Shown here: positions 12,000 through 63,500 of the stretch, in pieces
How the letters are laid out: every line of letters starts with the position of its first letter
Position numbering within the stretch: position 1 is the stretch's first letter
Assembly: GCF_964340395.1 (NCBI RefSeq)
Contig: NC_135550.1
Location: forward strand, 33,046,176-33,110,175
Reading direction: 5' to 3'
Origin: Glandiceps talaboti
Lineage: Eukaryota; Hemichordata; Enteropneusta; Spengelidae
Length of the DNA: 64,000 bases
Notes under the pieces: generated by a model
Told to the model about the DNA's origin: nothing
Databases searched by the model: none
The model's input: the letters and a program-made list of their open reading frames with translations, nothing else
Position numbers and translations under genes: made by a program

Positions 12000-13510
12000 A
12001 GGACCGATCAATTTCTTCGGCCGGGGGGGGGGCGGTGGATTGGTAGGAGGGTCACCCTTTTTTTTAAATTGGCAGTGGGGGGGTCATGCTGTTTTGAACA
12101 TTGAAAAAATCCTTTTCTACGATGGCATATAGCCTTGTCTGAAATGTGGTACATATAAATATTTGTTGTTGTCACTGTTTCTTACATCAATTCTTTAATA
12201 TTACTTATTAGTTCAAACATAACTATACATACACATATACATGTATTACCTAGCTACCACACTAGTTACAGAACATGTCACTTATATTGCACTTTGGGGC
12301 AAAAGTGAACTTGAAGGTTCCGTAATGGTAATCTTCATAGATAGTTTATAAAAGAAGTTAATCTAAATTGTTCTGCTTGTCAGTATGAACTTGTCAGAAG
12401 GGATTAATAACACTTTCTATTTTGGACACTACATGTTATCGATACTACAAATCACCACATCTCATCAGATTCCAGTTTCTATTATACACTAGATATGACC
12501 ACCTAAAGTTCTCTAACATACCGGTGACTTTACTGACACGGGAAACTCATAACTTACATTTACGTTAGCTTTTCGAAGCTTGGAAATATTAACTCAAAGG
12601 CTATGAATAACCTAAACATTGCCTTGATAGAAGCAAAAAACTCCAGATCTGCCAGGGGAAAACCCCAAGGACTCCCTCATCCCCAGAGATCACTCATGCA
12701 TTCAACCAACAATCAGATGCACCAACAACCTTTTTTACTGTCATAATGGTATTATGTCATAATGGTATTAAACTTTTCTTAAATGTTTTCACCCTATTCT
12801 GTTTTGAGATGATATTGTCTTTTAAAGCAATTCAGGTCACATTTACGTTAGCTTTTCGAAGCTTGGAAATATTAACTCAAAGGCTATGAATAACCTAAAC
12901 ATTGCCTTGATAGAAGCAAAAAACTCCAGATCTGCCAGGGGAAAACCCCAAGGACTCCCTCATCCCCAGAGATCACTCATGCATTCAACCAACAATCAGA
13001 TGCACCAACAACCTTTTTTACTGTCATAATGGTATTATGTCATAATGGTATTAAACTTTTCTTAAATGTTTTCACCCTATTCTGTTTTGAGATGATATTG
13101 TCTTTTAAAGCAATTCAGGTCGATCTGAATAGTCTCAAAATTGGCTTTTCAGAGTTACAAGCCTCCTGGGCTTCTAGGGGGAGACTCCCTAGAACCCCCC
13201 ATAAGAGATGTACATATTCCCCGATGCTATTAAACTCCTTCTGGAATACATTTACCCTGTGTAGTCAATAATTATTATAATTGTGATAGTGCTATCCCGG
13301 GATCTTATAAAGTATTTGCAAGACAGTCAAGCAGTCCACACTGAGTAACGATCAAAAAATACCATATGGGGGGGGGGGTCATCATATTTTAGAATTAAGT
13401 GATATGGGGTCAGCTTGTTTTTGGTTCATGGGGGGGGGGGGTCAGTGTCTTTTCGTCGGCACGATTTAATAATCCAATCCCCCCCCGGCTGGAGAAACTG
13501 ACCGGTCCCT
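12000..13510. mobile_element. 1.5-kb nonautonomous DNA transposon with G-rich inverted ends
   Basis: The left end (AGGACCGATCAATTTCTTCG, then GCC and a G-run) pairs with the inverse of the right end (AGGGACCGGTCAGTTTCTCC, then AGCC and a G-run). Beyond the G-run both read GGATTGG or GATTGG. Further G-runs followed by GGTCA occur inside both ends. No transposase frame was seen, so it is nonautonomous. The target duplication is not clear (at most AA or TAA), and the superfamily is not assigned. Confidence 0.65.
12556..13121. repeat. Perfect 283-bp tandem duplication inside the transposon
   Basis: Bases 12556-12838 and 12839-13121 appear identical by eye, offset exactly 283. The unit starts at ACATTTACGTTAGC and ends at CAATTCAGGTC. 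Such identity means a very recent duplication or an assembly artefact joining two haplotypes. Confidence 0.9.
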
Positions 13511-16500
13511 AAAGAGACATTATAACATACCCAGTTTCACTTCCAATGCAATTCAATGGAGAGTGTGCATATAAACGGTTAAACCTGTGCAATAATTTCC
13601 TGTGTCACGCCCTGCCCTGGCACACTTTGCCCAAATATGGCAAGTGTGTGCTCATCAATATCCGTTCGCTGTGTGATTCGACTTTGAATTTTTCTCAATA
13701 TCTTTATATTATTTGACATAAAATATTTTTAACGTACTAAATATAGAAAAGGGTGTCATTCCACTGTTTGCATACTGTATATGCTGTCATTCATGTTTAA
13801 AAGCATTAGAATTGATGTCATTCAACTTATGATAGAAATTGGCGGCTGTCATTCATCTATTTTAATAGTATCGAGAGTATCATTCAACTTACTATTAAAA
13901 TGTATAAAAGGGTGTCATTCCACTGTTTACATACTGTAAACAGTCATTCGTTTTCTCTCATTCGTGTTGAGATTCGTTTTAGAGTCACCCTGAATCCCAA
14001 TTCGTTCATGATTTGGTACATGAATCTATGGCACATGATATTATGATAACAATGACTACACTAAGCCTGGTGTCCAAGACTCCATTTTGTTTTCAGTGTT
14101 CAAATTTAAAAGCAGACATAAAGTGTATCTAATCGGGAACAGACTGCTACGTAAACCCGTACCCCATACTTCTTCCCACGTATTACATGTTTTCATATAC
14201 TTTACGTGGTCAACTCTAATTTGTTCTATTTAATTGAGAACTGTAAAGTAAATATTGACATATTAGATGTAAAGTGATCATATGTATCCCGTATGTATTG
14301 AATCAGATACATGTATCTTTGCTCGCCAACACCGGTACCTGGTATTGAATCGGGACGTTTGTGTTGTAGTAACGGACACATACATTTTCATGTTTTTGTT
14401 CGTTCAATTATTGATATTTCATATTTTTGTAGAAACTGTATCTTTTGTTGACGTCATCCTTCTTAAAAACGCGTGACCAAAATGTCGTATTTGTAAAAGT
14501 AACGACAAAATGAATAGGGTGTTTATAGAGTACTATGTAAAGTTCCCACGGTTTCGACGTCTCCTGATGTTGCATACACGTACATGTGTATTAATACAGT
14601 ACTGCTTGTTGAATTTCGTCTTTGAATAGAAGTTTGAAATAACATTTGTTGATTTTCAGTCCACGCTGTATTTAAAAGTTCTCCGTGACACTTGTAAACA
14701 CATTCATTTTCTTTCTTTTGTTTTTTTTGTTGGTGCTAAGATTTATATTTCAATTTACACGCCCAAGTGACAGAAATTATATAGTACAAGAACAATCGTG
14801 GCTCTAAGCTACAGATTACTAGATGTCCACTTTTTAAAAGACAAACTAAATTTCTGACTTTGTAACCCATATGCATTTTTCTTGAACAGTCATTAATGAC
14901 AGTAATTAAACTTACTTGTGTGTGTATTTTCACCCAAATATACGAGAGGGCGTTGTTGTAGTTTTGTAACTAATATTTCATTACCTATGCCAGCTTTTAT
15001 GGGATTTTTGACACTTTTATGTCAACTATTCATATCAAAATTATTAAAATAATTTAACACAATAATATACACTTTATTGCCTCTCATATAATGCCCCCAA
15101 ATTTGATGCGCTGTTAACAGAGCGAAAGCAGGTCGTAATTTTTGAAACCCCTTGAGTTCAGGTTTGTTGAGACCATCCAGTTTTATTTGTGTTTTCTATG
15201 CCCCCAAATATTCAAACGAGAGAGAAGTAAAATATCTGACATAGGTCGGAAATACATAACTTATAGATATATTATTACTATACGAGTATTAAATTTATTA
15301 TTGAGTGAAATACATAACTTATAGATATAATATTACTAGAAATGTATTTAATACTGGTAAAGTTTACTAGACATGAAACTTAATACGCTTGTTTAAGATC
15401 TAAACAATGTTACTATAGCCGTTTGAATCATTCTCACGAGCTAGTGTCATTCTTAAACATAGATATAGTAGGCATGTATTTCAGTCGTCGTAAAAAGGAC
15501 AACGACGTCTTGAATATGCTGGTAAAATAGATGTAATAATTTGGATGTCTTGTTAGAACACCAAATGACAACTTTGTGGTTACAATTCTTGTAAGTTTGT
15601 CTTCTAATCGTCCATCATAATAACACTTTTCGATGACATTCTCATCTTGTTTAGTCCCTATTACTAGTATTGCACCTTTCTATTTATGGTAGTTCCAAAT
15701 ATTTTAAGCCCATCAAACTTTACAGTATTCTGATTTCAATAAACCAGTCTCGAGTCAATCATGACTAAATTCCATATCTCCGTCAGCAAGCAGGGGTTAT
15801 ACTTTCGAAAAGATTCTCTGACTCAATCACAGAATCATTACATTGCTGTATTTGCAAAAACATGTTGCATTTAGTCAACTTTCATATATGTGTACTCGTG
15901 TCATATAATAATATCACCAGTGGCCTTTAATAGAAATGTTTGGTCCTCTCTCACAAATACAAACAATGTCACGTCGTAGCTTTTTTAGTGCCCAGCCAAC
16001 CTACATTCGCAAAAGACACAATACAAGTTTGATTAGAAACCATATTTTACTTCTCCAGAGGGCGTCGTGACAAGACAGTGCATTTTCTACATTGGTATTT
16101 TTCTGCACACATTATAAGACCATTACATGGGAGTGTATGTCATCAAGAATGCTGGCCACTATAAATGGTAATATAATATGAATCTAAGAGGCCTAGACCA
16201 AGGCTATTTGATTGTATTCGTGATTTTTGTTGTTGTCTACACTTTCAATGTAGACAACACTTTCTTAACAATTGATTACTGTTTAGTTTCGACTAGCCGA
16301 TGCATCCATAGATTTTCCAATGTCCTAGTAAGTAACTGTGCAAATATTCTGACTTCAAGACACTTTTTGAATAACGTACACAAGTTTTAGTGACTCCTGA
16401 GTGATTCTATCGTATATGGACATTTCTAAATGCTTATTGGGCTATGTTGTATTTTTTTCTCCAGGATCCACGTCAGCAAATCGTTTATGCATTCACAAGT

Positions 16501-17626
16501 AGGCACATCTGATAGAAATAATATTGGAAAGTAGCTGCATGCAAACTAACACTTCATTCAGATCAACATCAATCATCATCTGTCCAAGATCAGCTGACAT
16601 TCCAACATAATTGCTTACAGATGTATATTTCTTTTGACATCATTGCATCTTGACGCTTAGTAGTAGTTTGTACAACGATTCATACAGTACAGTATACGTT
16701 TAGGGGAGCACAGCTGAGCTAGCACTATCATATAAACCCTTACGGTGACCTCTTCTCACAACTTCAAGCCTTACCCTGGAACTTTCATGGTATGTCCATG
16801 AATTCCCCCAGCACACACATTACTAGCAAATATGCAGTAAATCACATTCTTGTAGATTCCAGGCCATAACTCTCAAATACACAACAGGGAACAGAAACCA
16901 TAATCTCGCAAAATATCAAACACAGAAACAAAGTTTAAATAATAAAACGTTTTTGTTCTTTTTTTAATTTATTTTCAGCATAAACTGTGAAAAAAAATAA
17001 CAAAGACACTACATATATGATTTTTCCTTTGGGCAGTACCCTCGTGACAGTATCAATGAATGATCGTCAATTCACTTTTTAGAAGTGTATTTTATTTTCG
17101 AATCAATATTGAAATATGGCTTGTCAGAAAATCGATGGAGAAACAATTTAAATCAAGTAAAAAAATTGAAAAAAAATGAAAATACATGTGCCGTTGATGA
17201 ATGGCTTGTTTTAAATGATAGATAGTCCATTTCTAGAAATGAGGATGAGCTGAGCGAAAGTTCAGAGTAGATTATAATTAAACACTTGTGTCAAGTGACT
17301 CCGAGATCAAAAATCTCAATTCATAAACATCACATCTTCACATGGAATTTGCTTTTTTTGTATTTAAAATATGGTACACAATTTTTTTTTCAACAAACTA
17401 AGACTTCTTTTTCTACTTTCTAGCTAGCAAGCACACGGTATGATTGTCTGAGTTAGGCACTGTCTACGAGTAAAAGCAATGAGTTTGTGAAAACGGATCA
17501 TAGTGATGAAAACTGTATGTAATTTGTAAGATCTGAGTTAGGTTGGATTGAAACTTTTAAACTTGTATTTGAGAAGAAGGAGGAAACAGAACAAGGATCT
17601 GCAAGTGCTGCTGGTCGGTTGCATTA
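13511..17626. other. Intergenic, no gene recognised
   Basis: AT-rich DNA with minor local repeats: GTGTCATTCCACTGTTT appears near 13753 and 13914, and GAAATACATAACTTATAGAT near 15249 and 15308. No open frame shows a known domain. The part near 17.6 kb should include the 3' untranslated region of the calmodulin-like gene. Confidence 0.55.
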
Positions 17627-20135
17627 CTAAGATGTCATCAAGGTTACAAATTCTGAAAATAGAACAGAGAATGGAATTCTGTATAAGTCATCGTTATTAA
17701 GTTACCCAGTCATTGGACATCTGCCTGTGCAATATATGTAAAGATCTCTAACAATAAAGAGACAAACTATCAAACCAAACAAGTGAAACAGTCAGTTCAA
17801 AACAAAGTGACTGTATGTCTCCAGGTCATACAACCATTGGAGGACAAGGGTCAAGAATTTGGATCACCCAGCAACTTTTTGTCTAAGTGTCACATTACAT
17901 AAATTCTCACATGACCACTGTAATTCAATGAATGCTTTAACTGTAGAATTTTTTTATCACATTTCAGAATTTTTCACATGACCATGACATTTTCTCACAT
18001 GACCGTTCCTACATTGGCACAGTCCCTCTAGTGACTGTGTTTGGCACTATCATTCGACTATGCATCTTATTGAATAAATATTGTACAACTCGTAACAGTT
18101 ATGACATGTTTTAAAACCAAGATTTAAAACCAAGATGTACTGCTGTCTGATAGCAGTAATCTAGTTGTAATGGCCATGTAAGAAAAGACTGGTTACGTCA
18201 TGAAGATTGATCGCCAAACCATCAGATTACAAAGGGTATAAGGTATGTGAGGACAGCTGTGCATCACACAGGGAAAACGAAGCCCCTTAAATGTTAGTAA
18301 TCAGGTGAACTGAGTGAATAGCAACAACACGTGACTCAACTTGAAAGGATATGACAACGTACACACCAGGTACATATATTAGTGTCGTACATAGTGAAAG
18401 GCATGGAACTACATGTACCTTCATAATTAACCTGGCCATCACCATCAATGTCAGCATCTCGAATCATTTCTTCTACCTCATCCTCTGTTAATTTTTCTCC
18501 CAAATCTTTAATGACGGTTCTAAGTTGTGCAACACTGATAATACCCTTGCCTTCTTTGTCGAACATACGAAACGCTTCTCTGATTTCACTCTCACTGAGT
18601 AATTGTGCCAGAATACTATAGAATTTATCGAGGTTAACGCAACCGTCTTCACCTGCAAACAAAAAGACGACAGAACTGTTAAGGTTTGAAATCTCTATTG
18701 TTGCCATAGAGACTAGTTTCTCTACAGTTATTTCTACTGAAAGCAAATAAACAAAGTTTATCAAAATCACTAAAACTTACCGCATCCTGCATTTTTAATG
18801 ATATCTGCAACTTCACCGTCTGTGGAGGCCTGGCCTGCTTTCTTCAGGGCTTCGCCTAAATCTTTTGCTGGGAGGCCACTGCCTTTGTCGAATGAGGCGA
18901 AAATGCCTTTAAATTCTGTGGTGAAAAAACAGTTGAATATCACTAATCATAGCATGACTATAGAATGAAAACACAGGGTGCTTGATGTCTACACTAAACT
19001 GTATTTTGACAGTAGGGAATGGCAAGGTTACTAGAAACAAAGCTATGAACGGAATGCAGAATGAGTCGGTCATTAATATCAAACCGAATGTCTTGTTTTT
19101 TAACTTTAGCAATGACGCTCAAAATCAGGACTGTTTTAAAATGTATGGTATTAGCTGTGATAACTTCTATTTTATTGATGGAGTATGCAATAATTGACAA
19201 GTCATCGTCTGGCGTGGTCGTTATTTGACCCCGGCAAGACAAAGTATGTAGGGAATTTCATGTTCCATGTGTCTTCCCATGAGCATTGCGCCCGTGTGTC
19301 GCTGTAAGGCATTTGCATTTATATTAGAAACTTTGACTTAAGGTTTAGGGTGTTTCCATGTAACCATTTTAGATACAAATATAACATTTTACTCACCGGT
19401 AATTTGTTCTTCAGTCAGTTGGTCTGCCTGCGAAGAAGAAGAGGAAAGGACGAAGTATTTATCCATGCATGTCAAAGCACTTGATTCTTTACTAACCTTC
19501 CCAATGTCATTATTACTATGGGCATAGCCTTGGCTTTGCATTTGCTTTGTGCCTTGATTCGTTAATACAGTCATCATCATCAATGTTGTTGTTGTTGTTG
19601 ATGATGATGATGATGATGATCTAATAATTCACATCACCGAAATCGTACTTTAAAAAAGATCATCAAAGCTTACGAGATGTGCATGAGTTCAGTCGTGTCG
19701 TTTAACTTTTGGTACAACATTATTTATAACTTCGGACTGTCCAACTTAAACTTACACATCAAGTCACGTCATTTTTGTGCCTTTTACTTTACAACAAGTA
19801 TCCGTTCAAACTTTTGGAAACTTTGCTAGTGCACACGACACGTTCGGCACCCAATGTAAAAAAAATCGCTAAGAGCAATTCAAAGTTCCAGTGTAAACTT
19901 ATCAGTCAAACAGATAAGTAAAAATCACATCATTTTCGGATGCTTGCCAATTGATCTACCACTATCACATGACTGACGATAAAAAATCTTGCACATATCA
20001 GTTATTCCGATTTTACGTTTCAAATCGTCATCTAAGTAATGCCCAATTCTCAAGGCAAACTTTTGATGCATAGTGATGGAGAACGAAAGTGGTTAGAAGT
20101 TACGAAGAAAAAAAATAGTGGAACAGGCTTACCAT
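17627..20135 (-). CDS. Divergent calmodulin-like EF-hand protein, 142 aa
   Basis: Exons on the minus strand: 20135-20133 (ATG only), 19427-19397, 18915-18781, 18652-18419, 17652-17627. They join in frame to 142 residues; calmodulin has 149 with its Met. The ATG-only exon, the 31-nt second exon ([10 protein letters not shown] plus one base) and the last intron inside NYE/EF are calmodulin's own intron positions, so this is a calmodulin paralogue. EF1 has a loop two residues short ([13 protein letters not shown]). EF2 lacks the key acids at loop positions 1, 3 and 12 ([12 protein letters not shown]). EF3 has K at position 5 and Q at 12 ([12 protein letters not shown]). EF4 is canonical ([12 protein letters not shown]). 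Expected behaviour: one calcium site in the C lobe and an N lobe that cannot switch normally. The role is unknown; an adaptor or light-chain-like job is possible. Calmodulin proper must lie elsewhere. Confidence 0.88.
19569..19622. repeat. GTT/GAT trinucleotide microsatellite
   Basis: CATCATCATCAATG followed by five GTT and seven or eight GAT units, in the first intron of the calmodulin-like gene. The two halves are partly complementary, giving a small foldback. Confidence 0.85.
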
Positions 20136-20560
20136 TGCTATAGATCGATGTTGTCCACTATGTTCTGTTTCCTTAGTCTACTCCACACGAGTGCATTCTT
20201 CGTTTGACAGACAGACAATGATTACCATAACGGCCCTTACCACAATGCCCATCGGCTTGAGATATTTTGCAATCATAGGGAGTCACTAAAGAGCGCTCAA
20301 CGTTCTACGTTTTGCAAAGTTTTATGTTCTAGGTTGTTCAAGTGTTGATTGGCATTGTCCCTTTAGGCAATGCTTTCTTTATAATATTCAAACTTTTCTT
20401 AAGTTAAAAAATCGTCTTCACAAGAATCATGGAATGGGGGGGGGGGGTTGTTTCAAGAACAATTATAATATTTTTTTGTTTCATATTCATATAAGAAAGT
20501 ATCAAGTGTAGTATCATAGGTGGTTGTTTGAATATTAAAATTTACAAATTCAGACATCTA

Positions 20561-20563
20561 ATA

Positions 20564-20594
<31 letters not shown>

Positions 20595-20710
20595 AAGAAG
20601 AAGAAGAAGAAGAAGAAGAAGAAGAAGAAGAAGAAGAAGAAGAAGAAGAAGAAGAAGAAGAAGAAGAAGAAGAAGAAGAAGAAGAAGAAGAAGAAGAAGA
20701 AGAAGAAGAA
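20561..20710. repeat. AAG/CTT trinucleotide microsatellite, about 49 units
   Basis: An uninterrupted run of AAG units of about 150 bp. Purine-pyrimidine tracts of this kind can form triplex (H-DNA) structures. Open frames reading poly-Leu or poly-Phe on the minus strand are artefacts of the repeat. Confidence 0.97.
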
Positions 20711-23700
20711 TGTAATATGTAATAGTTTTGTATCCTGCATGAACGTCGATACAGCAGGTGTCAACAGGATACATCAAAGAATTAGATTACACCTTAGTGT
20801 AAAATAAAATCTTGCAAGTATCATTGATTGGCAGAAGGGAAACACAGTATCTAACAAAATCTCTCTTTTGGAACAGACTGCAAAGTAAACTTTTTAGCTT
20901 TTAAAATAGGATGACACAAAGCTACCTTGTGGAATTAAAAGATCTGCCAATAAAAAGACAAGCGCCCAATTCAAAGTAGATGTTAGAGTTGTATGTGTTT
21001 CATTACCACATGTAGAGCAAAATCCACACCACTACATATAGCATTATGATATGAACAATTATAATACAGAAAGATATTTTACGTATAAGTTATGCTTTAA
21101 ACTTGGACTTGACTCTTACAACTTACACTTTACGTAATGATCAAACTTAAAACATAAGATAAAGTCAGACATCTACAGGTCTGGGGAGAACCGGAAACAG
21201 AAAAGTGTAAGTAGACTTAAGCTGTCTTAGAACTGAAAAGTTGTGCAAAACATAAAACTTAGAACACTGCTTAGTAACTTCCATAAAGGGATATTTCAAA
21301 AGAATTTGCAGTATGCGCGAGGGGTATCGCTTAGCTAGCTGGGATATATATGCAGTTTTAGGACATTTGACGCATTGCAGGTGTACATCAACCACTCATG
21401 TTTACGCTTTCTTCAGTGGCTGGGCGTTTTAAAATTCAAAGCCAATAAACTCATGGTTTACTTGGAGACGACCATGTGTGATTGGCTTGCTGGAATCAAG
21501 TCGCGTTACCTTGACATGATATCATATAGCTTTAAAGTAGTTCCTGCCGACTTTTAAAAACGCACATTATAAACGACGGCAATACAATTACTATGAAAAA
21601 TACTTATTTTAACGTCACTGTTACATTTAGTGAAACGTTGAACAATCACGCCACTAATATTTAGGCGTTGACGCAAGCTGATATAATGTTTATGTCTGGC
21701 CCAAGAATACACTTAACAAGTAAGGTCTTACGAACAGTGTTAGCCTATGATAGTTCGATGATGTACTGTAGTTCTGGCTGCTTTGTCTTTCGAAATAGCA
21801 TCGTACGGGATAATTATTACATCAGCTGTATATTCAGTCTGGAAGAAAGTTTGTTTTATTGGATATAAAAAATGTATCGTTCATACATACAAGGTTTACC
21901 TGAAAGAAAAAAGCGTGTCTGAACATTTACCAATATAGTTAATACAATTTCAGTTACATGGACTTAAAAAAAGAGTAAGTAATTTGATATGAGAGTTAAA
22001 ACTAATTTTGTTTATGAGCTGCGGCTCTAACCCATTTTAATATTGGTTGGTATGAGGTATTTTGGTGAGATGCAGTGTCATGATACCGGCTTTTTTGGTT
22101 CAAAGACCATTCCCTCTCCATAGTAAAAGTTAGTGGGTTTACAGTAATATGTCCATGATGATCGTGTTGCAAGCTGTATCTTGCCATTTAGGGTTTCCAG
22201 GTCGTCAATTGTACATTTGACACCGTTCTTGTCAGAAGCCTTCTAATCTCTCTTTACTGTGTAACCTTCCAGTCTACTGTTAAATCACGTGACTGTCGAG
22301 ATACGATAACCCATGCCTCACGGCTATCCTCGTATCCCTGTATCCCTGGATAAAAGCTACCCAAAGTGATCAGAGATAATTGTTGATGGCTAAGTCTTCA
22401 AATTTAATAGATGGCAGCAACAGTTGGCGACATGAGTCTACAACATATTATTGTCATGCGTATAGTTATCTAAGTCGAATGGTCATTCTTTTCAAATCAG
22501 ACCCATTCCTATAATATCATACATTCCAGTACTTGTAATATTTACAACCCCAAAGTTCAGACTAAACAGACTAACTTTAATGGTGCTATTTTGTGAAACA
22601 GCCTGCCCTCACAGTCAGAGTTGTATTTGGATATAGTTATATTTGTGAGTGTTGTTATAGTTTATACTATTCAGGCTATCTTATATCTATAGTACTGAGT
22701 GTTGTTTTTTGTACATCTTGTAATAGGTCCATTTATTCGACTTGTGCTGACCCACTGTTGAGATTTCTCCATTTGTGTGAAAAATGAATAAAACATGAAT
22801 AGTACAATGTCAATACATGAAAAACAATAAATAATATAACCATGGTCATTGCAGACATGATATCACGTACATTGTAGTATGTGCATTCCTCGACAACATA
22901 TGACGTAAAGAACCGTTTTGCATGTAATTATACAAATAATCACAGAAAAATGATAAGCATATGGTTTTCGTACATTTAAAGTTAAAAAATCTTCGTTTTG
23001 CGCACCTCGACAAAGAAAATGTCAAGCCTAAGTTACCAAGTACGTGAATACAGAAGGGAATCAAGGACGGAGTCGTGAAGTTTGTGGATCTGGAAAACGT
23101 TGGTGGGCCTACATTACTCTATTTTTGATGATGTCATGTTATGTTTGATGCATGTAATCTCAGATCACTCTACTATAATTATGTAATGTAGTGATCTGAC
23201 CACGTAAATAAACATGATCCACACAACAATAATGCATTTGGTTTGATTGAATATGTTATGGTATTTCGTTCTATTACATACATAAGTAACGTATCAACAT
23301 GTGACTTAGGAATTGTGAGCCTGACAGTGTTTATTATAACTGCTTAATGACTCGAGACAATATACACAGTAAGATTAAATGTAAGACTTTGTTGATAGAT
23401 GTAGTGCATCTTCAACCTGCTAATTGTTTATTTTTCCGGTCACGTCAATATTGCATGGTTCTACTTAAGTAACATTTTTTTAATGTTTACATCAACTATC
23501 GGCCCTTTAATTGATGTTAATCACGCAGTTTCTCTTCTATAAACTTGTGTAAGACTAAGAAAGCCAGGAGTTGACTATTACGATCTGACTGGCAGTATTG
23601 GGATTATCCTGCCCACAATTACATTTCCTTTTCTATGGATCCAATCCATCTGATGGTGTCTGATTTCTTACCAAGGTATCTATCTCTGTAGTCTCCTAGT

Positions 23701-25818
23701 GCAGCTGTTTCCATCTTGTCTAATTATCGATATCAGCTGTCATCAAAATATTTCAACAATCGAGTAACATATCCAATTTGACAATCTACAGCTTCTTTTA
23801 AAGACTAAAATTGTAGAATTTAATTTCATTTAAATTGTAGCTTCTAGAAAGGTGTTTCTAAAGGCTATATAATATTCGCTAATTACAATTAGATTGTTCT
23901 TTACCCCGTTCATCGTGGTTTCAGTCTGATTTATGAAAGACAACACAGACGTTTCTGCATAAACTATTTACAGACATGCTGGGTTGAGATTTGTTGACGT
24001 CATAATGATGCTTGCACCCTAGGATCGTTTACAATAGTCAATTAGAAATATTTTGGGTAGATAAATTATTAATCGCATTTTTCAACGGTCTTTGCAATCG
24101 TGCTTATCGTTGTAATAAGACTTATCGCCACTTATTACAATTTGTGTCATTTTATGAAAGTAACAAAAGTATACCTAGGAATGGCCCGACATATAAACCA
24201 CCACTTATGCGGTCTCATCAGTTGGCCTTGATTGTGCGCCATCTGTTGGCCTTGATTGTGCGCCATACACCATGTTTCGATTTTCGTGACATCTTGAACA
24301 GTCTTCGCTAGTTTTCCTATGACCATTAGTCTATTAACACTAATAGTGATTATCTTTGAACTTGACCAGAACTTGAGAGGGTTAAATCAGTATACATGTA
24401 CACAGCAATGCATGCTATATTATTGGATATATGTTGGTAGTTTGTGTTGTCAGAATAGACCTCTAGGGATCGGGCACTTGAACTTGAACTCATAGTTTAC
24501 TTGAAATTGATGATACACTTCAAGAAGGGCAATTGCTTTGTCAATTGGAGCTGCTTACACCTTCCTATTCTCGGATCATGAATTGTACAAGTGACTGGAG
24601 AATCTGCCAACTGTGTTACAGTACATTTAATTAAACCCCAGACCACTAAACCATTTCTATCTTCACAATGATCCTTAGTTTATGTGTACATTTTAATCAC
24701 TATCAAATCTTAGATCAGCAAGACCTGTAGTAAAAGATCAATATCCAATAAATCCTCAAATATGCGACACTATGTGGTCGTTACAATAATTAAATCACAA
24801 TAAGTCACACATAAGAGTTAAGCTTCCTAAGATAACAATAGGTCATGCATAATTATGAGCGTCGTCATGGAAATGACACAAAGGACACTAAACTTTAACT
24901 TGAATGACATCTCCATACAAACGATATTAGTGTACCTATTGTCTTGACATCCATAATATTCATTTCTTTAAATAGGTTGTGACATGTATGAACAACGCCA
25001 TGTCTGATCCCCAGAACAGTAATTAAAAATTCATGACATCACAATCATAACTTTAACCTACAAATGTATATCCATCATGACCGTCTTGCCATATATAGTG
25101 TCCAGTAGAACACAGTATAAGATTAGTATACTATCTTCAGCTGATGATAAATATCCTCGTCGCCAGAATCTACCTAGGGTAAATAAATCAACTGTACGCA
25201 TCAGTAAATTGCTACATTGGTGCTCTAGTTCATTTATTATTTTTAATTTACACGCCATCGAGTTACCTATCAACATAAGACCGTACATTGTTTGGTGGGC
25301 TTAGTCATAGTCTATGACTCTACACCATTACCATTGCATTGACAGATAAGAATACATTATAGTTGCATAGTTTAATGCATAAAGCAACTTTACTATTTTT
25401 TCTACTGTAAAATCAATGTGAAACAGCATAGACGAGATTCGTTTTTGTAACTAATATAAATTGCTATAACTATATACATAACTATATATATATAAGACCA
25501 TGAACTATACATTTTTGTGGCTAATATATTGCGGTATATTGATAAGTTGATTTTCTGTTTTTTTTCTGTTCTTATTCTGCCTAAGATTGATGAATAAGAG
25601 TCAGTGAGTCCATTACGCAACAACAGGGTGTAACAGTTACTAGAGTTTTATAAACCCGCAACGCCAACAGAAGTACAATTCAGTAATGTAAATTTATGAT
25701 ATTTACATTTTAATACTAATTAATCAATCTTCAATAAATAGACAAAGTTCGCAAAAAGTTACATGAAGGACTGACTGTAATGGAATGCATCAGTGAGTCA
25801 TGTTTGATGATAGTCAAA

Positions 25819-25910
25819 GGCACTCGAATCAATGTGTATGATTTAAAAAAATGTATAGTGAATAACAATAATACATTATTTCCGAAATCATACAGATTGA
25901 TTAGAGTGCC
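25819..25910. mobile_element. Short foldback MITE, copy 1 of a family
   Basis: The two 26-bp ends are inverted repeats matching at 24 positions (GGCACTCGAATCAAT and then GTATGATTT), around a 40-bp AT-rich centre. The element at 52916-53046 has the same ends, so this is a dispersed family. No coding capacity. The outer bases are diverged and no target duplication is clear in this copy. Confidence 0.8.
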
Positions 25911-26043
25911 TGTGATCTCGGGGCTCTTACACGACACCATCCAGACGAGAGGTCTCGTAGGCAGAGCCCCATGTGGCGAGCGTCTGGGTAACCGAAACTA
26001 GTGATGACGGGATCTATTTTCCCGTGATGCATTCAGAAACAAG

Positions 26044-39674
<13,631 letters not shown>

Positions 39675-45256: not shown

Positions 45257-53157
<7,901 letters not shown>

Positions 53158-53650
53158 TAGCACTATATCTCCCGATTAAGAGGGATAGGCTGTTGAATGT
53201 TTACATTAAAATATCCTCTGAATATCCTGAGCTAGCTGTACTGCTTTTCGAACCACTTTATTATTTCGCGGTAGACATTCTACGTAAAAGAGAACCTGAT
53301 TGGTCGAAACGAAAACTCAGAATACATATACATAAGGTACAAGGATTTTGATTAGAGAAAACTGACCTCTGATGACCCCTAGCTAGATCACTGAAATAAC
53401 TGTTACGTATTTTATTATATAAGTTTTATATTTAAAAATGCACTTAAGAAAGTAATACGCATTTATCAATTTCAAACTACATATTAACATAGTGAGTCAT
53501 GATTGTGTTTGAGAAATTTATAAATCTCATGTGTGACCTTTGACCCAAGTCAATGACCTTTACAAATTACATGACCAGCTGCACGTTGTGAAGACAGACA
53601 TGTGATCGAATATTTCTCCAAATGTACATGTCAAGGTCGATATAAAAAAC
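53158..53650. promoter_or_regulatory. Bidirectional promoter region between SLX4IP and MKKS
   Basis: About 500 bp separates the SLX4IP start codon (53157, minus) from the first MKKS-unit exon (ending 53719, plus). It contains several CpGs, a TTCGCGG segment near 53267, and an inverted CCAAT box (GATTGG, 53298-53303) in a good NF-Y context. No TATA box is obvious. Both genes must start within it or very near it. Confidence 0.6.
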
Positions 53651-53719
53651 TGCAAGATCGTTTCGTTATCGAGGTTGTTACCACTAATCTGCAGACGGAT
53701 TGAATTCAATATTTGTAAG
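53651..53719 (+). other. Probable first, noncoding exon of the MKKS unit
   Basis: A strong donor (TTTGTAAG, then GTATGT) ends an exon at 53719, downstream of the promoter and on the MKKS strand. The next acceptor on this strand with coding downstream is at 56692. The 5' boundary is a guess; no ATG-led frame of interest was seen in it. Confidence 0.5.
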
Positions 53720-53799
53720 GTATGTGCATTTGTTGATATGAGATGACTTGTGAAGTTGTGTAAGCACTAACAAGCCTAACAAGTTTTACTTAACCGAGT

Positions 53800-53960
53800 C
53801 ATGGGGGGGGGGGGGGGGTCTCGAGGTACAGCAGTAAGGGAGCCGTCATTATGTACGGCTGGGGGGGGGGGTAGGTAGGAAGAATCTGAGTAACAAAATG
53901 CAAAGCTACGGGGGGGGGGTTCTCAAAAGAATGAGGTGTGAAACGGGGGTCTATATTTTA
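53800..53960. mobile_element. G-rich transposon-end fragment
   Basis: AGGGAGCCGTCATTATGTAC followed by GGCTG and a G-run has the same layout as the ends of the element at 12000-13510 (AGGGACCGGTCAGTTTCTCC, then GCC and a G-run). Two more G-runs flank it (53803 and 53911). Only one end is visible, so it is a relic or solo fragment in MKKS-unit intron 1. Confidence 0.4.
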
Positions 53961-54059
53961 CAAACACACTGAAGTATATAGACCACACTTACCATGTCTT
54001 CCCAGTCAAAAATTACAAAATTTCTTACAGTGCTGCTGGTGTAGTATTTTAATAAATGT

Positions 54060-55790
54060 AATACTAATCTAGTGATATCAATGGCATCACATCTCAAGAT
54101 CTATCTTTGATACCACCAGTAGTCTAGTGATATCAATGGCATCACATCTCAAGATCTATCTTTGATACCACCACTAGTCTAGTGATATCAATGGCATCAC
54201 ATCTCAAGATCTATCTTTGATACCACCACTTGTCTAGTGATATCCATGACATCACATCTCAAGATCTATCTTTGATACCACCACTAATCTAGTGATATCA
54301 ATGGCATCACATCTCAAGATCTATCTTTGATACCACCACTAGTCTAGTGATATCAATGGCATCACATCTCAAGATCTATCTTTGATACCACCACTAGTCT
54401 AGTGATATCCATGGCATCACATCTCAAGATCTATCTTTGATACCACCACTAATCTAGTGATATCAATGGCATCACATCTCAAGATCTATCTTTGATACCA
54501 CCACTAGTCTAGTGATATCAATGGCATCACATCTCAAGATCTATCTTTGATACCACCACTAGTCTAGTGATATCAATGGCATCACATCTCAAGATCTATC
54601 TTTGATACCACCACTAGTCTAGTGATATCAATGGCATCACATCTCAAGATCTATCTTTGATACCACCACTAGTCTAGTGATATCAATGGCATCACATCTC
54701 AAGATCTATCTTTGATACCACCACTAGTCTAGTGATATCAATGGCATCACATCTCAAGATCTATCTTTGATACCACCACTTGTCTAGTGATATCAATGGC
54801 ATCACATCTCAAGATCTATCTTTGATACCACCACTAGTCTAGTGATATCAATGGCATCACATCTCAAGATCTATCTTTGATACCACCAGTAGTCTAGTGA
54901 TATCAATGGCATCACATCTCAAGATCTATCTTTGATACCACCACTAGTCTAGTGATATCAATGGCATCACATCTCAAGATCTATCTTTGATACCACCACT
55001 AGTCTAGTGATATCAATGGCATCACATCTCAAGATCTATCTTTGATACCACCACTAATCTAGTGATATCAATGGCATCACATCTCAAGATCTATCTTTGA
55101 TACCACCACTAGTCTAGTGATATCAATGGCATCACATCTCAAGATCTATCTTTGATACCACCACTAGTCTAGTGATATCAATGGCATCACATCTCAAGAT
55201 CTATCTTTGATACCACCACTAGTCTAGTGATATCAATGGCATCACATCTCAAGATCTATCTTTGATACCACCACTAGTCTAGTGATATCAATGGCATCAC
55301 ATCTCAAGATCTATCTTTGATACCACCACTAGTCTAGTGATATCAATGGCATCACATCTCAAGATCTATCTTTGATACCACCACTTGTCTAGTGATATCA
55401 ATGGCATCACATCTCAAGATCTATCTTTGATACCACCACTAGTCTAGTGATATCAATGGCATCACATCTCAAGATCTATCTTTGATACCACCAGTAGTCT
55501 AGTGATATCAATGGCATCACATCTCAAGATCTATCTTTGATACCACCACTAGTCTAGTGATATCAATGGCATCACATCTCAAGATCTATCTTTGATACCA
55601 CCACTAGTCTAGTGATATCAATGGCATCACATCTCAAGATCTATCTTTGATACCACCACTAGTCTAGTGATATCAATGGCATCACATCTCAAGATCTATC
55701 TTTGATACCACCACTAGTCTAGTGATATCCATGACATCACATCTCAAGATCTATCTTTGATACCACCAGTAGATCTAGACTAATGTAGTA
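54060..55790. repeat. 55-bp minisatellite, about 31 copies, in MKKS-unit intron 1
   Basis: The unit is AGTCTAGTGATATCAATGGC plus ATCACATCTCAAGATCTATC plus TTTGATACCACCACT. Copies are almost identical; the few variants (CCAGT, CCACTT, AATCTAG, CCATGAC) recur in the same order over a block of about ten units, showing higher-order amplification. The ends at 54060 and 55790 hold partial units. Confidence 0.97.
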
Positions 55791-56292
55791 CTTAATAAGT
55801 TTAAATCATGACACTCAACAACAGCAACATTGAGGCTACAAGAAACATTCCCCTTTCATATCCCCTGGCCCTTGAGAGGAGAGGTGATGTCTCAGCTTGT
55901 ACGGGAAAAATTACCAAAAAATTGTGGTAAAAGCTTGTCAAGCTAGTAGGTCAAAGTTCAGCTGATGTAGGCACTATTCCAGTGATATGTCTATTAAGTA
56001 TACTATAGAAAGATTTTACATGTAATCTTACTTAAAAGTCTGCAGAAGTAATACTTTATAGTGGATGTGAAATGGAGCCCTTTCCTGTAGTCTGAAACTC
56101 AATCTCTATGGTATTATTTTGTGTTTGACAGCATTAGCTGGGTGTCATCTTGATTTTCCGTACATAAGTCTTGAATATAGTCTCATATTGTCCTCCAATG
56201 TGAATCTGATTCTGAATCGGAGACCAAATTCATGCATCTTTTGGTATATCCTAATTTATTTGTAGACGTGTGTATGTAGTCTGCTGCAGATG

Positions 56293-56514
56293 TATGTGTA
56301 TATCATGTATGTATGTATGTATGTATGTGTATATCATGTATGTATGTATGTATGTATGTATGTATGTATGTATGTATGTATGTATGTATGTATGTATGTA
56401 TGTATGTATGTATGTATGTATGTATGTATGTATGTATGTATGTATGTATGTATGTATGTATGTATGTGTGTGTGTCTATCAGTCAGTCTGTTGGTGTCAC
56501 ATCTCACCTACCCC

Positions 56515-56569
<55 letters not shown>

Positions 56570-56580
56570 GTATGTATGTA
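56293..56580. repeat. GTAT and CTGT tetranucleotide microsatellites
   Basis: About 40 GTAT units (56306-56470) are followed by a short spacer and about 14 CTGT units (56514-56570). They end about 110 bp before the acceptor at 56692. Open frames through them are artefacts. Confidence 0.96.
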
Positions 56581-56709
56581 TGTGTGTGTTTGTCCATCTG
56601 TACCAACTAATGTGATAGATTGTCCTTTCCTTTTGTGTAAGTTAAAATCCCCAAAAACATTGATATGTCAATTTTCAACTATCACCTTTCAGATCCTGAA
56701 CACAGTAGA

Positions 56710-56994
56710 ATGGATGAGACAGAGAAACCCAAAGTTCAAAGCCATACTAGACCTCCACCACCACCACCACCCAGACCTAATTTCTTTGTCAGAAATAGAT
56801 TTATAATAGTGATGGGTGTAGCACTTATTAGTATACATGCGAGTTGGTATCAGTTACAGAAAAATCCAGTCTTTACTCCTAAAAGATCAGAGCATGCCAG
56901 TGTCAAACCAAGATATATCAAGTCAGAGAAAAAGAAAGAGTCTTCTGATCCCAAGGAATCCAAGGAAAAGTCCAAAAAATCTAACAAAGATTAG
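56710..56994 (+). CDS. 94-aa one-pass membrane microprotein encoded upstream of MKKS
   Basis: The exon is 56693-57024: its acceptor (CACCTTTCAG) precedes this ATG by 17 nt, and a perfect donor (ATAG, then GTAAGT) lies 30 nt after the stop. The next same-strand acceptor opens the first MKKS coding exon, so this frame appears to sit in the MKKS 5' leader as a separate upstream cistron. The protein has a short acidic-to-basic N-terminus, a proline run (RPPPPPPPRPNFF, about residues 15-27), one hydrophobic segment (FIIVMGVALISIHASWY, about 32-48) and a strongly basic Lys/Ser/Glu tail ending KSNKD. This layout suits a small mitochondrial or ER tail-type membrane protein. Mammalian MKKS is reported to carry upstream frames coding for mitochondrial membrane peptides; homology is inferred from position and type, not from alignment. 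An ATG at 56665 in the same frame lies in the intron and was not used. Confidence 0.72.
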   Translation: MDETEKPKVQSHTRPPPPPPPRPNFFVRNRFIIVMGVALISIHASWYQLQKNPVFTPKRSEHASVKPRYIKSEKKKESSDPKESKEKSKKSNKD

Positions 56995-57502
56995 ATTCAA
57001 CTGATCAACTGATATCACACATAGGTAAGTTGAATTGTATCGTCATCCCAATCTCTCCTGTGTTTTCCTAACACACTTGCCATCATGCAAATGCAAATGA
57101 AGCTTTAAAATGGGATTTCTTGTCAGAAAGCTAAAACTTTAAAACTATTGTCTGTTTAATTCAAATGGTGAAATCTGCTGATGATGTTTCTGGGGTATAG
57201 ATGAAGAGGTGTTGATGAGACAATTATTTACAGTATTCCTTTTAGTATGTAAATCTGCCAAAACTCAAAAATGTTATGCATATGAATGACCTTCTTTATA
57301 AAATAACAGCATGGATTTCAATATCAGTTGTGAACGAAGCCTTTGTAATGATTCACAATTAGATTCCAAGTTGTTATCTTTAATACTGTCCCAAAAAGTT
57401 TGCTGTTTTATTAGGATGTACAGTGAGTGCAGTATAAATTAATATTCTAATTTAAACAAAATTGTAATTCTTTCATTCTTTCAGTTGTCTGTAATTATCA
57501 GA

Positions 57503-60458
57503 ATGGATGTCAATCCTGGAATCACTGTGGCACCAAGTCAGCAATCAACAATTTCAATTCAAACTCTAAATGATCCAGAGGTTTTACACTCCATTCAGTT
57601 GTTTAAAAACATTATGTCTTCCTGTTATGGACCAAGAGGAAGAATCAAAATAATTCAAAATAATTCAGGTGGTACAGTGACAATGACCTCTATGTCAGCT
57701 GTTCTACTTGAAAGTGTTTCAGTGTCAAATCCAATACTTCAACTTGTTAAAAGTGCAGTTCAAAGTCACCTAGCGAGATTCAGTGATGGTGGATTGTTCA
57801 TTGCTCTGTTCACATCAGCATTAATAGAGAAATGTGTGCAGCTAGATATTCCAAGGACAGTTTGTATTTGTATTAATGAGTTTATGTTGAGACAAACCAT
57901 AGAGTACCTTGAATCAGAAGAATGTAGATGTAAAATAAAAATGGACTTTTCTGATTCTAACAGAATGTTGAATTTAGTGAAAGGTGTTATCGAAAGTAAG
58001 CCTGCCTGTTGTCTTCTTCCAAAAGAGAAGAGCATAATAAGTAGTTTAGTTCTGCAGGCTTTTCTGCAGTCACTTGCAGGTGAACCCAAACATAGTAACC
58101 ATGCAACCATTGGAACTATACAGTATGTCAACATAGAGGGCAGACCAGTGACAGACTCACAACTATTGCCTGGTGTCTTATTTCAAGCTCCGTACTTGCC
58201 AACATATAAATGCTGTGTATCTGAGTTGAGACACGTCAGTGGTGGACCAATGCAAGGTTTAGTGAGAGTTGCTTTGTATAATATTTCCATGTCTGGAGAT
58301 AGTGATGAATTTGTAGAAGTGCAATATGAGTCAACAAGTGGTATGACGAGCAGTGATATTGTTGTACAGAAGATGCTAAATGTGGTTGAAGACCTAGTCA
58401 AGCAAGGGATAGGACTGCTAGCCTGTCAAAAGGTTATCCATCCAGCTGTCAAGAAATACTGTAGACAACAGAAGATACTGACATTGGATAGGCTATCACT
58501 GACTCACATCAATGCTGTACAGTATGTGACAGGTACAGTGGTCTGCTACATGATACAACCATCATAAAGTGGATAGTATATAGTATACTGTATATAGTAG
58601 AAATTGTAATAAAATGGCCATTGTATGAAAATACAAAATGGACTCGCAAGTTTTCAAATTGTTTCTCTCAGTCAGATTACTGTTATTGTTTCCAATAGTT
58701 TGCTCTATTGTACTGTAACATTGCTGAGTTCATATATGCCATTTTGCTTACTTCATACATATTTTGACAAAATCATCAGTTTACCAGTATTCCATATATT
58801 ACTTTGTAATGGGCTATTGCTAGCATTCTTAGTGTAGAATTAATAAATATAGCCGAGTACTTACTCAGATGAAAGAGTCTATTGTCTTGTTCTTACAGGT
58901 GCAAGGTTGTTGAGCACTCTGCATACATCTGTCACCGAGTCCGACTTTGGTTATTTAACCAATGTCAGCCATAAAGTGATATTTGGGAAAAGTTTCCTGC
59001 ATTTGGAGTCACTTGCCAGTAATGTCATAACCTTGATACTCTGTAATAGAACTGAGCAGTCTGTACAGGAACTAAAGGTATGTCCATTCCTTCAAACTAT
59101 GTACCTGAACATTCTCTACAGAAACTAAAGGTATGTCCATTCCTTCAAACTATGTAACTGAACAGTCTGTACAGGAACTAAAAGTATGTCCATTCCTGTA
59201 AACTATGTAACTGAACAGTCTACAGGTATGTCCATTCCTTCAAACTATGTAATAGAAGTGAACTCTGTATAGGAACTAAAGGTGTGTCCATTCCTGTAAA
59301 CTATGTAACTGAAAAGTATGTACAGGAACTACAGGTATGGCAAGGCATGGAGGTATTATTCCCTTATACCTCCTCCATGGGTGAGGTAATAAACACTCAA
59401 CCATGCACAGATTAGTATAGTAGAGAGCTCTTTACTGTAATCTGTGTATGGTTGAGTGTTTATTCAGTGTGATAATCTCCCAGAAGATGAGATAAAGCAA
59501 ACTGTTGGTGTAACAGATATATATTATAACATTAGGGGTCTTTTGATTTAATAGATACGAGAGGAATGGACAAAATGTCTTTATTTTAATAGTCAATAAA
59601 GAGTGTAGAGTTGATAGAGAAAACTAGCAAGGGAAAGAAGGGAAAAAAGTTTTATATCACCACAAAAATCAATTGATCAATATCACACAAAACATGTTTT
59701 ATTTCATCACAAAAATTAATCAATCATTCAATTGATCAGTCACTCAATCAATCAATTACATGTTCGCTGTCTCCTGGGGATGTACCTTTGGAGGATTGTT
59801 GTACTGTTAATGGAAAAGTTGATACTAATCTGTGTTCAATAGATCATTTGACTATAACTTTTGTTATGTTTTGCTTACTTACAGAGAGTGTGTGAAAATG
59901 TTGATGTTATTTTAAGACATTCTCTAGTAAACCCTGTTGCTTTACTAGGTGCTGGCATCACTGAATGTTGTTTAATTAACCATCTCAGAAAACAGGTAAG
60001 TATTAATCTTATCACCCAGCAACATACAAAATTTATGTCTTGTATAACCACTTCAAAGCATTTCATTAGGACCTATATGTAAAGTCATTTCTGAAATCTT
60101 TAAAGTAAACTTTTGTTGTGGTCAAAAATGTTGCCATCCAATTCCATATATATCTCTCAATTTGTTATAGATGGATATACTGGCATCTCCTATCAGTAAG
60201 GAATTATATTGCAGAGAGAGTCACTTCGTAGCTGTGTCCACTGCATTTATTGAATGCCTGCAAACCATAGTAAGACATGTATCACACAACATAAACTGTA
60301 TAGATGCTGTCGATTGCTGTCAATATAACCCAGACTATACTCATATAGAAGACACACCTGTGGACTGCTTCACAATGAAGATAAATGCATTCAAGGTTGT
60401 GGTAGAAATTTCCAATGTTGTATTACAGATTAATAATTACATACATGATACAAAGTGA
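57503..60458 (+). CDS. MKKS: MKKS / BBS6 chaperonin-like protein
   Basis: Group II chaperonin-like protein of the BBS chaperonin complex, which helps assemble the BBSome at the centrosome/basal body. Exons: 57485-58532 (ATG at 57503), 58899-59077, 59885-59995, 60171-60458; phases agree, 535 residues (human 570). Matches to the remembered human protein: SCYGPRGRIK (human SCYGPSGRLK); RFSDGGLFIALF (human SFSDCGLFTAIL); ESKPACCLLPKE (human TSKPACMLTRKE); LLACQKVIHPAVK (human LVLCQKVIHPSLK); ITLILCNRTEQSVQELK; NPVALLGAGITE (human EPWALLGGGCTE). The GDGTT ATPase motif of true CCT subunits is replaced by SDGGL, as expected for BBS6, so ATP hydrolysis is unlikely. A polyadenylation signal follows at 60497. 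The upstream microprotein probably shares its mRNA. The donor at 59077 lies in a short tandem array. Confidence 0.95.
59055..59345. repeat. Degenerate tandem array copying the end and donor of an MKKS exon
   Basis: The real exon end (CTGTACAGGAACTAAAG, exon end 59077, then GTATGTCCATTCC) is followed by about five imperfect copies of ACTAAAGGTATGTCCATTCC or a close variant, with ACTATGTAA-type linkers, at about 40-60 bp spacing. Read-through from the real donor stays open until AGA AAC TAA, about 50 nt on. Confidence 0.85.
59388..59464. repeat. 77-bp near-perfect palindrome
   Basis: AATAAACACTCAACCATGCA plus CAGATTA pairs with its inverse at the right side (TAATCTGTGTATGGTTGAGT, then GTTTATT), differing at one base, around a short centre that continues the stem (GTATAGTAGAGAGCTCTTTACTG). 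It could be a foldback MITE or a stable RNA hairpin in the MKKS intron. A second small hairpin (CATGGAGGTAT/ATACCTCCTCCATG) lies just before it, at 59346-59379. Confidence 0.85.
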
Positions 60459-60502: not shown

Positions 60503-63500
60503 AGTGTCCTGACACACATACATGATGTAATGATGTATAATAACTCGGTTGTATTCACTTCTTAGTGTTTACAATACTATAATATGAGATGCTCTATTGC
60601 TTTTATCTTCTGTACTTGTTGCTTGCCCTTCTAAAATAAGTTGAACAAAGATGTTGTCTTTCTATAGTATGTAGTCTGAAAGGTCCAGCCCTTGGTCCAT
60701 TTATGTAACCACTTGTTTCCCATGAGAGAGAGTGTGCATTATATAAACGGAAGGACCACCTGCACCTTTCAGGCTATGTAGTATGCTGAATTTGAACACA
60801 AATAACCAAACACTTCATTTATAGTTTACCTGCTAATTGAAAATCTATACATGTATATCTTTTTTAAATTTTGTTGAATATTAATGTCTGGCATAGTTAC
60901 AGTATTTTATGAATCTAAGTGATATATTATTATGTATGATGTAAAACAAATATTTGAAGGTGCTCAATAAAGGAAAGGCTTAATATTAATATTAATAACT
61001 ACATTGTTATGGTAGTGTTGTAATGATATATAATTACTTAACACTCCCTTACAGGACATAAAAACTGGACTACCTAATGATTTGAGTGTGATGTGGTTAC
61101 TTTTTCCAAACATGTGCATTTGTTTGTTGTTTCAATAAAATACAGAGAGTTCCATCTCTATGAAACAAACTTATAGTACTTTTCATAACTCCAAATCACA
61201 TTTATTTCAAAGTATTAAATGACTTTCTGACAAGTTATGCCAATTTTAACAACCTCAGAGTACTTTAATATCAAGTCAGGACATTCAACCTTTTCAGGGT
61301 GAACAAATATTCAAATCAGAATCTGTAAAGAATGGCATCCTCAGTGTTTGAAATATGAGGAAAAAAAATATGTAGGCATGGCTTGAAATTGAACATGACA
61401 GCTTGGATGTTTTCTTGCTTTAACCAACACTATAGACAGCTGGGATGTCATCTTTACATGGGGTTTAAATATTTAGCAGACAGGGAGTAGCACACAGGGG
61501 GCATATATATGATTATGTTATATGTACACACACATGCACAAGTCTGACAATTTTGGATATTTTGTATAAATTATGCAAACCAATCATAGAGATACCCACA
61601 GGTAATGTAAGGAAGAACATTGATATTTGTCACTTTATATAAAACATAATACATGAGATCACCTGACACTAGAAGACTCAGACGAATATGACAGAAAACA
61701 GCGTTTTCTCCATCAGATTTTCATAGATTACATGTAATTCTAACCAGTCACCAAGAACAAGAATGACAATTTGGAATGAATTCTGAAAAATGTCAAGATG
61801 GTAATAAATAAGATAATAAAGAATGACGATAAAAAGAGGCTGAGACTGAGATGAAGATTTACAATCTGGATATTTATTATCAATGAGTGAATTGCATCCA
61901 GAAGAACACAACAACAGTAGACGGCTTTATCTTTTGTATAATCGTTATTACAATAAGCAAAATTGCTCACATTTGGAAATGAGAAAGATATTGAATCAAA
62001 TCAACTATGGTATTTACTAAAAAATCACATCAGCAGCATTTATTTTCATGTACTTTACGGACGACTTACTCAAAGAATTATATTACAGCCAAATGTACAG
62101 TAAACCAAATACGAAAAAAAATTGTTGCCATTTACACTCAAAAAAAGAAAGAATTTGCCATCTAGATTTTTAGAGTGACTGACAAACATATACTTGAAAT
62201 ACATAATCTAGATACCACTTACAGAATTTTACAATCATCAAATACATGATAATTTTGTGATGAACTTTTTAAAAACTGACACTAGGGGCAGCTACAGTTT
62301 TATACACAGAAATACTCTACTAAGAGTTCTAAAACGGAATTCTATGAAACTGACTTTGTTTTTGTGACTAAATGTGTCCTGCATAAAGCCATCTGAAAGA
62401 GAAGGCTTGTTTGCATAAAGACTGGCATGAATAGAAATCTACTGATATAAAGTAAAACAGGAATATACATTTTAAATGTGCAGGAATATAACAATATAAT
62501 TTGTGGATGTCCCAAGTAGTTTTAACTTTTGTAAACTTGGGTTGTCTAAATAGAATGCTAACATGCGGCTATACATCTGTAACTTGTGTGGTATCCTCTT
62601 CTTCTTTGTTTCTTCATTTTGTAATGAATTAAATCATTGATCATTACGACGGAACATTGACACTATTTTTTTGTACAAATCATTCACTTGCAATTATCTG
62701 ACAAAAGTAAAACAATAATATACAAAAATTTATGCAAATTTCAACTGATTGGATACATTATTTGTAATTTGCATATTTAAATCTGATTGGACCAGATGCG
62801 AATAACCTAGGACTAGCAGTTATAAATTAATGATTTCAAATTCTTTATTTTTCTTGTCTCATTGAAAGATGTTTTGGTCTCTATTTCTTCTGGTCTCCTA
62901 CAAACCCAACTATATGTAGTGCAGTCCTGAAATGTTTTTTCAAAACTGTTCCTCACAGCAGTAGTTTTCATTTTCAACACTCCACATCATACATATTACG
63001 TCAACATTTGTCTCAAACTGAAAAAAAAATATCTGAACATGATAAAAATAAACCTAATTACAGGACAACCAAAATACATAACAGAAACAGCAAAGAAACC
63101 ATGCAAATTAAAAAACTTTGCAGCAAAATCTTATGGAACTACTTCCTCCACAGGAAGTCTGACTAAAAGTAGACCATCCCAGCTACTCAAGTGTCACAGT
63201 TTTCTTGTAGTATGGGGACCATGCACAAAGGGGCGTAGTGTTGCCTCACACCTTTTTACCTGTTACCTGGATGTAAAAAATGGTAGGAGTCAAATGGTGC
63301 AAGACAGGATAGATTACAAAAGCAAAATAAATTATTGAAATCTCATTCCTTGGAAAGGATTGCAGCATGAGTCCTTCCATGATGCAGGTTGTCAGGAGCA
63401 ATGTTTTGTTGTTGGTGAGCAGTAAGTAAGGAGGATCATACCGAATCAACCATGCAGGAAACTGTAAAAGGGAGCTGATGTGAAGCACCCACAGAAGTCA

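Follow-up and report, generated by a model that had tools for sequence, protein, structure and literature searches.

The 64,000-nucleotide stretch of DNA analysed here (the window) comes from the acorn worm Glandiceps talaboti (contig NC_135550.1, positions 33,046,176 to 33,110,175), and all positions are counted from its first letter. On its plus strand lies the gene for the chaperonin MKKS, and one exon upstream there is a 94-residue reading frame, called the microprotein below. The position and splice context of this frame suggest that the two may be carried as two cistrons on a single mRNA. The features concerned are the following.

53651..53719, plus strand: candidate first exon, non-coding, of the transcript for MKKS, with TATAAA at 53641
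56693..57024, plus strand: leader exon with the upstream frame; a CAG acceptor ends at 56692, and the donor AG/GTAAGT has its GT at 57025
56710..56994, plus strand: the 94-residue upstream frame (acidic start, proline run, one predicted membrane helix, basic tail)
57025..57484, plus strand: GT-AG intron between the microprotein exon and MKKS, with a CpG observed/expected ratio (CpG o/e) of 0.18
57503..60458, plus strand: MKKS coding region of four coding exons, from the splice model, the NCBI identity and Pfam Cpn60_TCP1
57503-58532, 58899-59077, 59885-59995 and 60171-60458, plus strand: the MKKS coding exons

By its sequence, the downstream gene is MKKS (BBS6). The spliced model of 535 residues is identical to the NCBI protein 'molecular chaperone MKKS-like [Glandiceps talaboti]' and carries the Cpn60_TCP1 domain of group II chaperonins (PF00118, E 3.7e-58). 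A protein search in which 7995 candidates were scored gave 6 matches at E <=0.001, five of them named MKKS or McKusick-Kaufman and one unnamed. Saccoglossus kowalevskii matched with 54% identity across 75% of the query, and the further matches were from a starfish (39%), the unnamed protein (33%) and two catfishes (34% and 33%). Within this gene, about 5.6 tandem copies of a 53-base unit (59050-59339) repeat the end of coding exon 2 together with its 5' splice site; near-copies of ACTAAAG/GTATGT thus lie downstream of the exon 2 donor in use and could supply alternative donors.

The initial annotation had placed the end of the upstream frame 30 nucleotides before a GTAAGT donor and the next acceptor 18 nucleotides before the MKKS ATG. 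The sequence agrees with this: the donor lies at that distance past the microprotein stop, and the pyrimidine-rich acceptor TTCTTTCAG ends at 57484, with the ATG at 57503. The string AGGTAAGT occurs 15 times on the plus strand of the window, with 12 copies clustered at 36.5-37.3 kilobases (kb); the three that remain are at 38639, 57023 and 59994, the last being the splice donor after coding exon 3 of MKKS. The candidate first exon contains no ATG and has two alternative GT donors near 53715-53720, TTT/GTAAGG or GTAAG/GTATGT. When 57024 is joined to 57485, the MKKS AUG falls 48 nucleotides after the microprotein stop and in the same register, and there is no AUG within this spacer. The common register raises the idea that stop readthrough joins the upstream frame to the N terminus of MKKS, giving a membrane-anchored chaperonin. 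We regard this as very improbable, given that three in-frame stops (the frame's own TAG, then TGA and TAG) intervene before the MKKS ATG, and that the NCBI model starts at the predicted ATG while aligned relatives start there or nearby.

All of the protein features that had been described for the frame (a proline run, one hydrophobic segment and a basic tail) are present at 56710-56994. There are 7 consecutive prolines, a lysine-rich tail and an overall net charge of +11, and the only hydrophobic stretch spans residues 31-49 with a mean Kyte-Doolittle value of 1.65. AlphaFold2, run on the single sequence, predicts one helix (residues 25-51). Its predicted local distance difference test scores (pLDDT) average 90, 96 and 88 in successive blocks of residues 21-50, the value of 96 belonging to residues 31-40, and are mostly below 70 elsewhere, residues 11-20 (80) being the exception. 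The microprotein AUG stands in a strong context, with A at -3 and G at +4, and AGAATGG is the start context of both this AUG and that of MKKS. Five AUGs precede MKKS in the leader exon (56710, 56714, 56812, 56837 and 56894). The first belongs to the 94-codon frame, the one at 56812 is in frame with it, and frames of 30 and 55 codons overlap in other registers. The ten bases AGAATGGATG are common to both starts (56707-56716 for the microprotein and 57500-57509 for MKKS), and each start has a second ATG four bases further on, in a different register.

On the other side of the leader exon, a gene on the opposite strand and a stretch of distinct CpG content complete the picture.

46067..52512, minus strand: homologue of SLX4IP, modelled with six exons and incomplete at the 5' and 3' ends
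52512-52417, 51713-51590, 50666-50556, 48760-48544, 48124-46571 and 46151-46067, minus strand: exons of the SLX4IP homologue
52301..53900, no strand: CpG-normal stretch, a candidate shared two-way promoter between the UPF0492 (SLX4IP) gene and MKKS

The exons of this neighbour were picked by eye with AG/GT borders, and when joined they form a single open frame. The first 168 residues of the model match Pfam UPF0492 (E 5.4e-8, 32.8 bits with a cut-off of 27), which we take to be the family of SLX4IP. UPF0492 was absent from the Pfam listing for the full model of 729 residues, which is taken as dilution by the long variable tail. Three minus-strand frames at 46-54 kb, read through their stops, had no Pfam match, whereas the spliced model did. 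A simple pattern scan for the start of SLX4IP returned one unconvincing stretch, and a candidate first exon at 53157-53128 was rejected, as it did not raise the Pfam score (32.6 versus 32.8 bits). The UPF0492 gene, a homologue by its Pfam domain, and MKKS are oriented head-to-head, as are the human SLX4IP and MKKS genes. An MKKS::SLX4IP fusion is listed in PMC9817688.

Within 42.4-64 kb, a CpG o/e of at least 0.75 is found only at 52301-53900. Twelve windows of 500 nucleotides start at 52301-53401, of which 11 have values of 0.77-1.13 and one (53101-53600) has 0.71; the median across 636 windows is 0.22, and no CpG-normal stretch lies directly before MKKS. In animals with methylated gene bodies, such a pattern corresponds to a promoter followed by a gene body. 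It therefore points to one two-way promoter, with the microprotein exon and MKKS in one gene body. An Rfam search of 52.0-61.5 kb found nothing at gathering score, and a bacterial promoter and terminator scan has no meaning for animal DNA. A 55-base satellite (54063-55778, 31 copies, 98% matches) separates the candidate promoter from the microprotein exon, together with tetranucleotide runs; the windows sampled at 54001-55700 have no CpG.

Taken together with the neighbouring features, the locus leads us to favour, by a modest degree, a reading in which translation begins in the leader exon, yielding a small membrane protein, probably of mitochondria, and in which small amounts of MKKS come from this mRNA or from shorter leaders. 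Transcription would start at a promoter used in common with SLX4IP. In the resulting MKKS precursor the 94-codon frame would occupy a leader exon of its own, and splicing of 57024 to 57485 would yield a two-cistron mRNA whose cistrons share a register and are separated by three stops. Ribosomes scanning from the cap would reach the microprotein AUG first and produce a small single-pass membrane protein; its moderately hydrophobic, basic-flanked helix makes a mitochondrial membrane the most likely location. Little MKKS would then be made, whether through reinitiation, leaky scanning beyond the five AUGs or the use of shorter leaders, and the upstream frame would thus restrain it. The shared transcription proposed in the initial annotation has gained from the head-to-head UPF0492 gene, the single CpG-normal stretch, the absence of AATAAA and ATTAAA across 56693-57484 and the NCBI start at the MKKS ATG; it is still something that we infer, as is translation of the microprotein frame.

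Several results weigh against this two-cistron reading. Ribosomes usually reinitiate poorly once they have translated 94 codons, and a different leader may therefore be required for MKKS. The acceptor ahead of the leader exon is of moderate strength (a count by eye gives 8 pyrimidines in 12 positions), and CpG-normal windows are plentiful at 9.6-26.4 kb (9601-26400) and in the repeat at 31-32.6 kb, so the CpG sign is not promoter-specific. The others bear on the alternative that this is an incidental upstream frame in the MKKS leader, whether translated or not, its peptide functionless and its mere presence lowering MKKS output, which we consider unlikely, if still deserving of attention. An ATG frame of at least 94 codons arose in 1 of 5000 dinucleotide shuffles of the leader exon, which speaks against an incidental frame, but the longest frame in 114 overlapping 331-nucleotide windows of nearby noncoding DNA has 99 codons (63039-63338, no Pfam match), and frame length alone is therefore a weak argument. 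Codon usage was scored per codon from the codon frequencies of MKKS and the SLX4IP homologue versus nearby noncoding DNA. The microprotein scored 0.072, against a noncoding mean of -0.155 (standard deviation 0.086), a value reached by 3 of 610 noncoding windows, which overlap and so are not independent. With training on a single gene the scores were 0.036 and 0.024 (reached by 5 and 14 of the 610 windows), within the range of known-gene windows (-0.134 to 0.108 for MKKS and -0.081 to 0.290 for the SLX4IP homologue), whereas the frame at 63039 scored -0.13 and -0.12; by this measure the codons look coding, another point against an incidental frame. The score parts known coding windows from noncoding DNA loosely, however, and the +2 frame of the same DNA reaches 0.068, near the microprotein's own value; the codon signal is thus not frame-specific and is partly composition. 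A hydrophobic segment of at least 1.65 (19-residue scale) occurs in 703 of 2018 pseudo-peptides from noncoding DNA, 33 of which also have a total charge of at least +11. None of the 2018 combines the membrane segment and the charge with both flanks at +3 or more, which argues against an incidental frame, with flank criteria that were taken from the observed microprotein and pseudo-peptides that overlap and have their stops removed.

An incidental frame would also fit the outcome of a word-based protein search (which reaches proteins of 0.55-1.75 times the query length sharing short exact words), where the microprotein had 1 word-sharing candidate and none at E <=10. Viral contigs gave 8 pattern matches for the microprotein (2 for MKKS exon 1 and 19 for an alignment of six MKKS proteins) with no relative encoded, and prokaryote genome contigs gave 16 for the six-MKKS alignment, again with no relative encoded. 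These being virus and prokaryote collections, such nulls are uninformative on conservation in animals. Small membrane proteins diverge fast.

The locus could instead hold two separate genes, the microprotein having its own short polyadenylated transcript and MKKS a promoter inside the 460-nucleotide intron. Among nine variant poly(A) signals tried in 56995-57490, only TATAAA (57297 and 57433) and AATGAA (57096) occur; the two intronic TATAAA copies might be TATA boxes or weak poly(A) signals, and they and AATGAA would suit this arrangement. The canonical AATAAA and ATTAAA are nevertheless missing from 56693-57484, the intron has the low CpG o/e given above with no promoter-like stretch near MKKS, and a consensus donor and a pyrimidine-rich acceptor stand exactly at these exon ends. 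We therefore judge two separate genes to be quite unlikely and retain the two-cistron mRNA as the preferred reading.

The suggestion in the initial annotation that the frame is homologous to the vertebrate uMKKS peptides found no support in the comparisons made: besides the lack of a relative in the word-based search, there was no likeness to a human 17-residue peptide, and the frame counts differ. The peptide, 17 of the 63 residues of human uMKKS1 as printed in PMC8448870, gave a local score of 14 with the microprotein, which was reached by 1753 of 2000 shuffles. A protein search with this peptide, padded with X, found no candidate with three common words, though the padding may hinder such a search. 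Pfam gave nothing above cut-off for the microprotein (below it, SLC52_ribofla_tr at 0.024 and FYDLN_acid at 0.031), and the sole PDB match had E 3.9. Because the protein collection includes the NCBI Glandiceps MKKS and held no match to the 94-residue frame, the frame may lack a protein annotation at NCBI. No literature pairing MKKS with hemichordates was found, and one paper found for MKKS, upstream frames and invertebrates names MKKS as a known case. The microprotein and the vertebrate peptides may or may not share an ancestor.

The closest known system is that of uMKKS0, uMKKS1 and uMKKS2, upstream frames of mammalian MKKS that were reportedly described by Akimoto et al. 2013. The human frames encode 43, 63 and 50 residues (PMC9985340). 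Mitochondrial membrane fractions contain uMKKS1 and 2, and the leader has a poly(A) site at which a short human MKKS transcript terminates (PMC12573267). These frames are described as translated, mitochondrial and repressive (PMC7530721, PMC7066179, PMC10908861; the latter two also for the mitochondrial location of a uMKKS product), repression of the main frame acting at least partly through the sequence of the upstream frame (PMC7530721), and GENCODE treats the MKKS upstream frame as a separate gene (PMC6886504). The acorn worm frame is alike in lying upstream of MKKS, in encoding a small protein with a predicted membrane helix and in having SLX4IP as head-to-head neighbour. It differs in being one frame of 94 residues where the human leader has three, in a leader without a canonical signal where the human one has a poly(A) site, and in its unlikeness to the published human peptide. 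Having several short frames may be peculiar to human MKKS and need not define uMKKS. The differences in frame number and poly(A) site, with a sequence comparison that covers 17 human residues, leave the frame no more than a candidate member of the uMKKS group. By analogy, the acorn worm leader is nonetheless probably a two-cistron leader that works like the human one, and the microprotein would be mitochondrial and would repress MKKS. The MIEF1 and SLC35A4 mRNAs likewise combine a mitochondrial microprotein with a restrained main protein (PMC7530721, PMC10908861), although these genes are unrelated to MKKS and the 94-residue protein has no Pfam match above cut-off.

Elsewhere in the window, about 1 kb of trinucleotide-like repeats at 31438-32427 is very G+C-rich and open in many frames, and CpG-normal windows are common at 9601-26400, unlike most of the window's right half. 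On the minus strand, part of an EF-hand gene lies at 18336-18707 (EF-hand_7, E 3.2e-16). A 171-residue frame at 6475-6990 on the same strand seems to us to recall the start of COQ8 (ADCK), an unconfirmed likeness with no Pfam match at E 0.01.

We put forward, tentatively and with some doubt, the possibility that a single mRNA already carried a mitochondrial microprotein together with MKKS before the vertebrate/hemichordate split and has done so ever since, under a promoter also facing SLX4IP; such an arrangement would be over 500 million years old. Should the acorn worm frame be homologous to those of vertebrate uMKKS, the mitochondrial microprotein and the ciliary chaperonin would form an ancient dicistron and not a vertebrate oddity. 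Its function would then be testable in the acorn worm, and there would be an argument for a joint need for both products. Without homology, membrane peptides would have arisen in MKKS leaders on more than one occasion, a sign that the arrangement as such is under selection.

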